Under the pieces are notes generated by a model, which saw only the letters and a program-made list of their open reading frames with translations, did not search any database and had not been told where the DNA came from. Shown here in pieces: positions 4,703 to 7,633 of a stretch of DNA of 64,000 bases; the first letter of the stretch is position 1; every line of letters starts with the position of its first letter. The translations under genes and the position numbers were made by a program. The stretch spans positions 1,116,001-1,180,000 of the forward strand of contig NZ_CP042828.1 of NCBI RefSeq assembly GCF_008000995.1, written 5' to 3'. This DNA comes from Ruania zhangjianzhongii. GTDB lineage: Bacteria > Actinomycetota > Actinomycetes > Actinomycetales > Beutenbergiaceae.

Positions 4703-4730
4703 CTATGAGTAAGAGCAAGGAGTGTGGTGC

Positions 4731-5807
4731 ATGAGCGCCGCTGCAGCTACCCGCCCGGCCGCCGGACGTAAGTTGACCGGTGACAGTGTGCTCGAGGGAG
4801 CCGTGGAGCTGGCGCGCGCCGCCCTGGGCGAGGAGCAGGTGGGCGAACACCTCGGCTTCGCCCTGGAGGCCGAACGCCTCGGCACCCACTACTTCGCTGC
4901 GACCGCACCCGGCTACCGGGGATGGCGCTGGTATGTGAGCCTGTCCCGGATCCCGCGCTCCCGGAACGCGACCGTGTGCGAGTCCGGGCTGCTGCCGGGG
5001 GATGAGTCGCTGACCGCTCCGGCCTGGCTGCCGTGGGCCGAACGGCTCGCACCGGGTGACCTCGGCCCCACGGACCGGCTGCCCTACGTGCCCGGCGACG
5101 ACCGGCTCGAGCCGGGGTGGGTCGCCGGTACCGGCGACGAGGAGACCGATCACCTGGCGCTGCGGGAGCTCGGCCTCGGCCGGGACCGGGTGCTCAACCG
5201 CAAGGCGATCGACGCCGCAGCCACCCGTTGGCACGAAGGCTCCCGTGGGCCGGACACGGCTGGAGCAAAGGCCGCGGGAGCGTCCTGCGCGAGCTGCGGT
5301 TTCATCGTGCCGCTCGCCGGATCGCTCGGCACCGTGTTCGGCGTCTGCGCGAACGAGTGGTCGCCCGACGATGGCAAAGTGGTCGCACTGGACCATGGCT
5401 GCGGTGCGCACTCCGAGACCGATGTGCCGGAGGACGGGCACGAGTGGGACCAGCCGGACCTGCACCTGAACGAGTTCGATCTCGAGGTGCTGGCGCAGCC
5501 GGAGCCTGAGTCGAGTGCGCAGCCGGAGGCGAGTGCCGCGCCGGAGGCTGAGCCGGAGCCGGAGCCGGGTGCGGCTGATGACGCGGGCAGCGGTGAGGAT
5601 GCCGCGGAGACGCCGGCCGCCGAAGGCGCTGAAGCTGACGCCGAGACGCCGGCCACGAACGATGCTGGGGGCACGGCGATCGACGCCGCCGCCGAGGGCA
5701 CCGCGGATGCTGCCGAGAGCACCGCGGACGCCGCCGAGACGCCGGCCGCAGACGCGCCCGCTGAGGCCGGTCACCCACCGGCTGAAGGTTCCTCGAATCA
5801 CTCCTGA
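4731..5807 (+). CDS. DUF3027 family protein with acidic Ala/Pro/Glu tail
   Basis: 358 residues. The N-terminal ~250 match DUF3027, a conserved actinobacterial family of unknown function (Rv0883c type): YRGWRWYVSLSR near residue 65, LPGDESLTAPAWLPWAERL, and a CASCGF...CANEW...DHGCGAH set of Cys/His that could bind metal. From about residue 255 the protein is a low-complexity acidic stretch rich in Ala, Pro and Glu (EPEPEPG, repeated ADAAE), probably disordered. The start at 4731 is set by AAGGAG eight bases upstream. It follows the cold-shock gene on the same strand. No function is proposed. Confidence 0.88.
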   Translation: MSAAAATRPAAGRKLTGDSVLEGAVELARAALGEEQVGEHLGFALEAERLGTHYFAATAPGYRGWRWYVSLSRIPRSRNATVCESGLLPGDESLTAPAWLPWAERLAPGDLGPTDRLPYVPGDDRLEPGWVAGTGDEETDHLALRELGLGRDRVLNRKAIDAAATRWHEGSRGPDTAGAKAAGASCASCGFIVPLAGSLGTVFGVCANEWSPDDGKVVALDHGCGAHSETDVPEDGHEWDQPDLHLNEFDLEVLAQPEPESSAQPEASAAPEAEPEPEPGAADDAGSGEDAAETPAAEGAEADAETPATNDAGGTAIDAAAEGTADAAESTADAAETPAADAPAEAGHPPAEGSSNHS

Positions 5808-5958
5808 TCGGCGCCATCTCGCCGTATAATCCCGAGTGCGTGGTACCTCCACGTATCGGCCGTAGAGCCGGATCCTGCACGGGCGGTCTGCGATGTGCTC
5901 CGCTACAGTGTGAAGGACCCGTCTCTCGGGGGACTACTGGCTAAGGAGCCGAGAGAAT

Positions 5959-6282
5959 ATGAGCGAAAAGATGACACGTCGGGCCCGATGGGCAGCGGTT
6001 GCCGGCGGTGCGGTGTGCGCGGTGCTACTGATGGCACCGGGAGCATCCGCATCCACCACAGCAGGGTGGGGTGACGAGCTCATCCAGCTCAACCCCGGCG
6101 GCTCGCAGGTTCAGGGTTGGGGCGACGAGCTGATCAACGGTGGTGGTGGCAACCAGGCACTGGGCTGGGGCGACGAGCTGATCAACGGTGGTGGTGGCAA
6201 CCAGGCACTGGGCTGGGGCGACGAGCTGATCAACGGCGGTGGCGGCTACCAGACCCTCGGTTGGGGCGACGAACTCATCTGA
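5959..6282 (+). CDS. Small secreted protein made of WGDELI tandem repeats
   Basis: 107 residues, family not recognised. Residues 1-31 are a Sec signal peptide: basic KMTRRARR-like start, hydrophobic core AAVAGGAVCAVLLMAP, and ASA before the likely cleavage site. The mature protein is almost only repeats: WGDELI occurs five times, at residues 37, 54, 70, 86 and 102, linked by Gly/Asn/Gln-rich spacers (NGGGGNQALG), and the chain ends exactly on the fifth WGDELI. The mature chain has no Cys, Lys, Arg or His and is acidic. AAGGAG lies ten bases before the ATG; a possible -10 (TACAGT, 5904-5909) lies upstream, and a 16-bp terminator hairpin follows, so it looks monocistronic. Secreted structural/binding peptide or precursor of repeated peptides are both possible. 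Confidence 0.82.
   Translation: MSEKMTRRARWAAVAGGAVCAVLLMAPGASASTTAGWGDELIQLNPGGSQVQGWGDELINGGGGNQALGWGDELINGGGGNQALGWGDELINGGGGYQTLGWGDELI
6067..6279 (+). repeat. Tandem 48-bp coding repeats (WGDELI units)
   Basis: Units begin at 6067 (51 bp, divergent), 6118, 6166 and 6214 (48 bp each) and 6262 (18 bp, partial). The units at 6118 and 6166 are almost identical at DNA level. The unit at 6214 differs mainly at third positions and in two residues, so the array probably expands by slippage while keeping the hexapeptide. Confidence 0.9.
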
Positions 6283-6315
6283 GTCCGGCTCGGCCGAGTT
6301 TCCCCGCAGCTGTCA

Positions 6316-6352
6316 CAGATGGCCGCGTCCGTGAGTCGGACGCGGCCATCTG
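6316..6352 (+). terminator. Strong hairpin terminator after the WGDELI gene
   Basis: CAGATGGCCGCGTCCG pairs perfectly with its reverse complement at 6337-6352: 16-bp stem, loop TGAGT. It starts 34 bp after the stop codon. It has no long U tract, which is usual in high-GC actinobacteria. Confidence 0.75.
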
Positions 6353-6394: not shown

Positions 6395-7633
6395 GTGAGC
6401 GTGTCTGGGCAGTACACCTCACTACGCCCGCTGATCCCCGGGGTCTATCTGCCGTCGCTGCTGTTCAGCATCGGGATCGGTGCGATGACGCCGATGATCG
6501 CGGTCAGTGCTGTGGGGCTCGGTTCCGGTGCTGCTGGTGCAGCGCTCCTGGTGGCCCTCGTCCCGGTCGGCCAGATCATCGCCGATGTGCCCGCCGGGGT
6601 TCTCGCCGCGCGCCTGGGGGACCGGAGCGCGATGATCGCCTCCTCGCTGGTGGCGATGCTGGCCCTGGCCGGCTGTGCGCTCGCGCCCAACCTGGCCACG
6701 CTTGCCGTGGCGGTCCTGCTCACCGGAGCCACGAACTCGGTGTACGGCTTGGCCCGGCAGGCGCACCTGACCGAGGTGATCGCGCCGATGCGGCGGGCCC
6801 GGGCGATGTCCGCGCTCGGCGGGGTCGCCCGGATCGGCCTGTTCATCGGCCCGTTCGCCGGTGCCGCCCTGGTGCACGGGGCCGGTGGGCCGGCCCCGTC
6901 CTACTGGCTCGGCGTGGCCACCTCGCTGATCTCCGCGCTGGTGGTCTGGTTCGTGGTGCCGGCCGAGGGCAAGGACCACGACGGATCGGGCGCCACCCCG
7001 CGCCCGCGGATCTCCACGCTGCAGGTGCTGCGTGACTTTCGCGGCATCTTCACCACCCTGGGCATCGCCGTGCTGCTGGTGGGGGCGGTACGCGGCGCCC
7101 GGCAGACCGTGCTGCCGCTGTGGACCGAGCACCTCAACTACGCCCCGGCCACCACCAGCCTGGTGTTCGGCCTCGCCGGCGCGGTGGACATGCTGCTGTT
7201 CTACCCGGCCGGCAAGGTGATGGACCGGCTGGGCCGGCTGTGGGTGGCCGTGCCGTCGATGCTGGTGATGACCGTGGCGATGGTGCTGCTGCCGTTCACC
7301 CAGTCGCTGCCCGCTGTGATCACCGTGGCCCTCGTGCTGGGGATCGGCAACGGCATCGGGTCCGGGATCCTGATGACTCTCGGGGCTGATACCGCACCGG
7401 AGCACGCCCGCGCCCAGTACCTGGGCATCTGGCGACTGTTCGGCGATACCGGCAACGCCGGCGGCCCGCTGGGAGTCTCCCTCGGTGCCGCTCTCGGCTC
7501 GCTCGGGGCCGGGATCATGGCGATGGGCGGCATCGGCGTGCTCGCTGCTGCGGCGCTGTGGCGATGGGTGCCCCGCTGGACCGACCATGCCAACGCCACC
7601 ACCCGCCGTCGGGCTGGACTGACCGGACACTGA
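6395..7633 (+). CDS. Major facilitator superfamily transporter
   Basis: 412 residues with about twelve hydrophobic segments, consistent with a complete MFS carrier. The loop between TM2 and TM3 carries the family signature (GVLAARLGDRSAM), and a related copy starts the second half (PAGKVMDRLGRLW). TM5 has a glycine/proline-rich exporter-like motif (LGGVARIGLFIGPFAGA), which favours drug/metabolite efflux; the substrate is unknown. The start is uncertain: GTG at 6395 or GTG at 6401, both without a good ribosome site. It is preceded by the terminator hairpin, so it is a separate unit from the WGDELI gene. Confidence 0.88.
   Translation: MSVSGQYTSLRPLIPGVYLPSLLFSIGIGAMTPMIAVSAVGLGSGAAGAALLVALVPVGQIIADVPAGVLAARLGDRSAMIASSLVAMLALAGCALAPNLATLAVAVLLTGATNSVYGLARQAHLTEVIAPMRRARAMSALGGVARIGLFIGPFAGAALVHGAGGPAPSYWLGVATSLISALVVWFVVPAEGKDHDGSGATPRPRISTLQVLRDFRGIFTTLGIAVLLVGAVRGARQTVLPLWTEHLNYAPATTSLVFGLAGAVDMLLFYPAGKVMDRLGRLWVAVPSMLVMTVAMVLLPFTQSLPAVITVALVLGIGNGIGSGILMTLGADTAPEHARAQYLGIWRLFGDTGNAGGPLGVSLGAALGSLGAGIMAMGGIGVLAAAALWRWVPRWTDHANATTRRRAGLTGH

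Follow-up and report, generated by a model that had tools for sequence, protein, structure and literature searches.

Introduction

The closest described systems to the gene reported here are the Rap-Phr pairs of the RRNPPA family, which occur in Bacillota and their phages. Phr propeptides have been described that carry tandem identical pheromones in up to 8 copies, that are processed by extracellular proteases and that are found in phages too (PMC11343458). RRNPPA propeptides start with a Sec leader and have the pheromone at their C-terminus; the peptides of Rgg systems (SHP) are described as very short, hydrophobic and exported without Sec, via PptAB (PMC9765709). In one account, encoded propeptides are the way of the Bacillota and the signals of Actinomycetota are typically small molecules made by enzymes (PMC10075063); what is in print disagrees on which signals Actinomycetota use.

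Here we describe a gene of Ruania zhangjianzhongii (Ruaniaceae, Micrococcales; genome of 5.1 Mb) that encodes five copies of the heptapeptide GWGDELI. It lies in a window of 64,000 nucleotides, the whole stretch of DNA that was analysed (contig NZ_CP042828.1, positions 1,116,001 to 1,180,000), and coordinates below are those of the window unless a contig is named. We put the odds at about even (roughly 0.5) that the gene is the precursor of a short, pheromone-like peptide ligand in several identical copies, and that two Occultella prophages carry a leaderless copy of it. In the literature, GWGDELI and WGDELI appeared in no paper and GDEELI only in papers that were off-topic by title; titles and abstract openings among the matches listed held nothing on this gene.

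Results

The array gene of the window

The gene (5959..6282, + strand) encodes 107 residues and, judging from its sequence and its orthologues, is a small and probably exported precursor. A predicted Sec signal peptide covers residues 1-31 (5959..6051, +), with cleavage after ASA; it was judged by eye from a positive n-region, a hydrophobic core and the AxA site, as were signal peptides and cleavage sites throughout, and its layout is similar in the Ruania and Occultella orthologues. The five GWGDELI units lie at 6064..6084, 6115..6135, 6163..6183, 6211..6231 and 6259..6279, all on the + strand, and a TGA follows the fifth immediately. They start at residues 36, 53, 69, 85 and 101, a spacing of 17, 16, 16 and 16 residues.

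A sequence-only reading of this DNA had claimed an exported 107-residue protein with five WGDELI copies, spaced by 16-17 residues and ending on the last of them. The ORF and the residue positions bear this out, with export resting on the by-eye leader. The same reading held that Cys, Lys, Arg and His are absent after the signal peptide, which is true of the 76-residue chain that follows the predicted AxA site, and that two 48-bp units are nearly identical as DNA; Tandem Repeats Finder independently recovered the tandem repeat (period 48 bp, 3.5 copies, 91% match, 6114-6279). It was also right that the gene has a ribosome-binding site of its own: CTAAGGAG lies upstream of the ORF at 5941..5948 (+) and is identical in Ruania albidiflava. 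Its strong terminator stands only in part. A 15-bp hairpin (6317..6351, +) 3' of the stop is indeed strong and terminator-like, and the 83-nt stretch around it has a stable fold (-45.2 kcal/mol, z -3.95), but the hairpin lacks a T-run and a simple terminator scan scored 0.

Upstream of the gene, TACAGT (5904..5909, +) is a putative -10 element of what may be the gene's own promoter. It was proposed from a CG[CAT]TAC..T block seen by eye upstream of several orthologues, and a sigma-70 consensus scan gave no match. Hairpins in the 5' leader were rejected as regulators, as in the five leaders examined 46, 10, 32, 178 and 72 of 200 shuffles folded equally well.

For the window protein, a Pfam search gave no family up to E 1 and NCBIfam gave a single match far below the cut-off (11 vs 281 bits); against PDB sequences the best E was 0.51, confined to the signal-peptide region. 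The earlier verdict of an unrecognised family thus holds for this protein, with no Pfam or NCBIfam match above cut-off. Two resemblances were set aside: that to EF-hands or lanthanide tags, as the units are not long enough and have no loop, and a curli-like look of GGGNQAL, which is superficial. When the five units were compared pairwise, 22 synonymous and 0 non-synonymous codon differences were found in 70 codon comparisons, and we therefore do not regard the repeat as a product of chance.

The gene is flanked by a DUF3027 gene (4722..5807, +), which is the positional anchor of the family and probably lies outside the system, and by an MFS transporter gene (6395..7633, +), which is probably an ancestral neighbour. 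Because these two genes are directly adjacent in one relative (G009), with nothing between them, both are probably background neighbours, and we rejected them as functional partners. The DUF3027 protein has a long, low-complexity tail rich in Pro, Ala and Glu, with short tandem repeats (5470-5807). About 2 kb downstream of the array gene lies a gene for a virginiamycin B lyase family protein (PF24684; 8285-9145).

A family of arrays at one locus

Of the 24 family genomes, 15 have an array or motif gene, at a fixed locus by DUF3027. It lies beside the DUF3027 gene in 14 of these carriers, and in the fifteenth (G007) the locus is cut by a contig end. The place after DUF3027 could be inspected at 22 loci, of which 18 were scanned for small ORFs and the other four were known arrays. 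Eight of the nine non-carriers (G009, G011, G012, G013, G015, G016, G019 and G022) had no array over the ~0.35-1.4 kb after DUF3027, and the ninth (G008) gave no DUF3027 match.

The carriers differ in the unit that they encode. GWGDELI is present in four to eight copies in seven genomes, including R. albidiflava (G005), Candidatus Ruania gallistercoris, Occultella aeris, O. gossypii (G023) and O. glacieicola (G010). The Ruania arrays of this type have 4-5 units at a spacing of 15-17 residues (with G007 cut by the contig end), and those of Occultella have 6-8 units at a strict spacing of 9 residues. Across the 24 genomes the WGDELI pattern gave 41 matches, 39 of them inside the arrays of these seven. 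Five further Ruania genomes have, after DUF3027, a small ORF with a Sec-type leader that ends DEE[LV]I-stop: GGDEELI in four units in G002 and three in G004, and a single C-terminal DEEVI unit in G001, G003 and G006. The DEE[LV]I-stop pattern found exactly these five genes among the 24 genomes. Lastly, the arrays of three genomes of a third genus, g8 (G014, G018 and G021), lie in the interval from DUF3027 to the MFS gene and repeat GGKDGDEFI or GPKDGSEFI 16, 22 and 15 times; all 52 KDGxEFI matches in the 24 genomes fall within these arrays. The g8 arrays have no obvious Sec signal, and one extra residue (C, G or L) follows their last unit. What the units share is either G-[DS]-E-[LF]-I or D-E-E-[LV]-I.

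Two of the g8 array proteins matched Pfam as whole proteins: that of G021 reached 36.4 bits for SH3_2 (cut-off 21.8) and that of G018 21 bits for DUF3924, at the cut-off. No single stretch passes, the best being 17-18 residues, and we read both as chance similarity summed over a repetitive chain rather than as identities. In three Occultella genomes (L016, L017 and L019) the array and the MFS gene are separated by a ~1.8-kb gene that, by eye, probably encodes an epimerase of polysaccharide biosynthesis; O. glacieicola lacks it at the array locus.

Altogether, the array genes are a fast-evolving family at one fixed locus. Copy number changes among relatives: the comparison of repeat numbers that the sequence-only reading had proposed, once run, gave 1 to 22 units at the same locus. 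Orthologues were found and no described family matched, so on these two points that reading was not refuted; its interpretation is partly supported.

Beyond the family, the searches drew on two overlapping samples, one of 396 genomes from the order and one of 394 from the class; the contig scan used an exact two-unit WGDELI pattern, which diverged units outside the family would escape. A profile search of the 396 genomes gave 54 at E<=0.01, of which 12 were the alignment's own members (E<=1.4e-14) and the other 42 had a best E of 1.1e-6 or weaker. In a protein search, 10 of 59 genomes matched, seven of them through arrays. The weak matches in G024, G050 and G006 were dropped, as a small-ORF scan of those loci showed no WG[DN] repeat; the DEEVI gene of G006 lies elsewhere than its match. 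A later search of the 396 genomes matched eight, of which three were the g8 arrays. The matches in G017 and G023 were dropped for stops inside them, and those in G129 and G246 as no array was seen. Relaxed WGDE..WGDE repeats, sought in the 394 genomes of the class, occurred only in G000 and G010, both already known carriers.

The eighth match of the later search, in a genome of another family of the order (G144), is a look-alike in layout. Its contig C29 (L147) encodes, at 1458-1919 on the - strand, a small protein with a Sec-type leader (by eye) and nine R[AS]DAHRWE units at a period of 13-14 residues. Like the window gene, it has a leader and near-identical units and ends on the last unit; unlike it, it has an unrelated motif and locus, and it was found through layout alone. 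The layout of a leader followed by tandem units and ending on a unit thus exists elsewhere in the order around an unrelated motif. By eye, the gene that comes next resembles one for a secreted hydrolase of the tripeptidyl-aminopeptidase type, and no phage copy of the R[AS]DAHRWE unit was found in IMG/VR (stop pattern TGA only).

Prophage micro-ORFs that end on the host motif

Outside the arrays, the WGDELI matches in the 24 genomes of the family come down to two ORFs of 16 codons, MFGFFFGLFGWGDELI and MFRFFFGFLGWGDELI (O. glacieicola, G010:C21:158926-158976, and O. gossypii, G023:C35:145004-145054). Their consensus is MF[GR]FFFG[LF][FL]GWGDELI; they are leaderless and end with the host's exact seven residues. 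In each, an AGGAGG ribosome site lies 7-8 bases 5' of the ATG; one of these sites reads GTAAGGAGGTGATCC and matches the anti-SD end of the 16S rRNA. Each also has a strong hairpin 3' of the stop.

Both micro-ORFs lie in prophages (L131 and L130). In O. glacieicola, tRNA-Arg is followed by the gene of a small HTH protein, an ORF that by eye is excisionase-like, the micro-ORF and then terminase, portal, tape measure and integrase. This prophage is compact, with ~15 kb from tRNA-Arg to integrase, yet terminase, portal and tape measure are present. In the O. gossypii prophage, integrase and then HTH genes precede terminase, portal, head protein, tape measure, endolysin and a beta-helix tail protein; the micro-ORF follows 36 nt after the tail protein gene, and then comes tRNA-Thr. 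By BLAST at the thresholds used, the two prophages share a 68-bp block around the micro-ORF at 91% identity and a small ORF with 48% protein identity and a 101-bp DNA match at 77%; all other matches are <=28 bases. Each of the three differences between the micro-ORFs changes an amino acid N-terminal of the core, and the last 24 bases are the same in both, which makes selection on the phage peptide unprovable from these two copies.

Could the micro-ORFs be there by chance, or as functionless host sequence captured recently, with the host gene just an orphan repeat gene? Only these two prophages were found to carry one. Searches of IMG/VR and of phage records found no micro-ORF-like match in other phages: the one WGDELI-stop match in IMG/VR is the O. 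glacieicola prophage itself, and 128 weak partial matches of the micro-ORF DNA among 50,697 phage records include none that covers 80%. The shared 68-bp block and the other small ORF make exchange between phages possible. Against this, WGDELI-stop gave nine matches in the 396 genomes of the order, namely the seven arrays and the two micro-ORFs, with 0 for a reversed-pattern control; both copies have their ribosome site, start codon and hairpin; and the DNA version of the phage core is absent from all 39 host units. We consider coincidence or capture very improbable. Viral scans for GGDEELI-stop and G-x-KDGxEFI-TGA gave 0, and four other viral matches (L124, L142, L143 and L157) were discarded as chance.

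An invariant unit between variable spacers

At the DNA level the 39 host GWGDELI units of the seven genomes come in 26 versions, yet not one amino acid changes, and the peptide is therefore under strong selection. GGKDGDEFI is likewise identical in 31 of 31 units of G014 and G021, as counted with the pattern itself, and in G018 GPKDGSEFI is kept in 20 of 22 units, with one KEG and one DGT variant. The spacers, in contrast to the units, vary in sequence and in length (1-10 residues). Unit spacing runs from 9 to 20 residues overall and is irregular in G018 (10, 12, 14, 16, 17). An invariant unit among such spacers is the behaviour of a linear motif or an excised peptide, not of a stacked fold.

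This bears on the two readings that had been offered from the sequence. One was a functional repeat, for self-assembly among other roles; we weighed it as a structural or self-assembling surface protein with an amyloid- or solenoid-like repeat. Gly-rich repeats in Ruania and the constant 9-residue period in Occultella would suit it, but the irregular period of G018 and the one-copy orthologues weaken it, and a 16-residue phage copy makes no structural sense; we regard it as improbable. The other, a precursor of repeated peptides, came out better supported: one-copy orthologues keep the C-terminal motif, the spacers are of 1-10 residues, and the prophage micro-ORFs have one bare copy.

The main rival to the ligand precursor is a multivalent array of linear motifs, in which an intact, flexible chain docks many times on a partner (a surface protein, an enzyme or a matrix) and the phage peptide is a monovalent competitor. 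Irregular spacers around an invariant motif suit such an array as well, it needs no protease, it accommodates the g8 arrays, which have 15-22 units and no obvious Sec signal, and the phage copy would act as a blocker. Three Ruania species, however, have a single copy and hence no multivalency. In addition, the protein ends exactly on the motif in 12 of 12 Ruania and Occultella genes, the three one-copy genes included. This points to a role for a free carboxylate (g8 has one residue beyond the motif). On balance, docking is a serious possibility, albeit one that we think is more probably wrong than right.

Related motifs stand behind three unrelated N-termini: the Sec-type leader, the g8 leader and the Phe-rich 9-mer of the phages. 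A leader-dependent maturation enzyme would hardly tolerate this, and it counts against a RiPP precursor, in which the repeats would be cores that undergo modification or cyclisation, each unit opening with Gly and closing with Ile. Many identical cores behind a leader, with short spacers, do give a multi-core-like layout, and multi-core precursors are known among graspetides; in those of cluster 13, a leader is followed by repeated cores (PMC8939145). The core composition there is unrelated, however, Cys, Ser, Thr and Lys are all absent from GWGDELI, and no maturation enzyme was recognised beside the array gene (window neighbours on Pfam, other loci as ORF lists). We therefore find a RiPP precursor doubtful. 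What stays constant is a short peptide, which except in g8 forms the very end of the chain, and the simplest account of this is a ligand that the host makes in tandem and the phage singly.

Discussion

The likeness to Rap-Phr lies in the Sec-type leader, the short linear unit at the C-terminus, the identical tandem units and the presence of bacterial and phage copies (PMC11343458, PMC9765709). The differences are that the present family is in Actinomycetota, has up to 22 units and has a leaderless 16-mer as its phage form. The propeptide layout of RRNPPA fits the 12 Ruania and Occultella genes (the leader is whole, by eye, in 11 of them, and G007 lacks the start) and not the three g8 genomes. 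An adjacent TPR-type receptor gene, as in RRNPPA systems, was not seen: the neighbours are DUF3027 and MFS genes, and none of the 24 family genomes matched RNPP_C (PF18768) at E<=0.01. No receptor gene was recognised among the neighbours, some of which were run against family models, and the prophages showed HTH proteins only. With no RNPP_C match and no receptor gene recognised beside the array, formal RRNPPA membership fails, and a likeness in function has about even odds; similarity to Phr in sequence was compared through Pfam and NCBIfam.

In SHP peptides, the ligand is C-terminal. The phage micro-ORF resembles the SHP of streptococcal Rgg systems in its very short product without a Sec signal and its hydrophobic N-terminal part (PMC9765709). 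It differs in that it sits in an actinobacterial prophage with no Rgg-type regulator recognised beside it, and its export is putative.

For the ligand precursor, then, we propose the following. The unit in the window species is GWGDELI, and the conserved locus, the invariance of the unit, the change in copy number, the C-terminal position in Ruania and Occultella and the identical prophage motif are all directly observed. The precursor would leave the cell by Sec, and proteases outside would free the units, the last of which already has a free C-terminus. A putative receptor would read the C-terminal G-D-E-x-I part, as a pheromone or a similar ligand between cells. Unit duplication would change the copy number and so set the dose, and the spacers would drift. 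In the Occultella prophages, the 16-residue leaderless micro-ORF, if translated, would allow the phage to supply or imitate the host ligand. Two points go against parts of this scheme: no protease site was seen for the internal units, whose release would require a cut after Ile, and the g8 arrays, with no obvious Sec signal and a further residue behind their final unit, speak against a uniform export route.

A tandem linear-peptide gene whose unit is identical in host and prophage has as its candidate ligand a synthetic peptide of seven residues, which makes for a concrete and cheap test. If the unit is a docking motif instead, the identity of host and phage copies indicates a host protein as the target of a 16-residue phage peptide. 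The exact seven-residue identity itself suggests a peptide signal that may be used by both bacterium and phage. More broadly, and tentatively, the family might be a linear ribosomal peptide signal in Actinomycetota, with 1 to 22 tandem copies in the host and a leaderless 16-residue copy in temperate phages, which would join or jam the peptide conversation of their hosts, and its units (GWGDELI, GGDEELI, DEEVI and KDG[DS]EFI) might diversify by species as pheromone-receptor pairs do.
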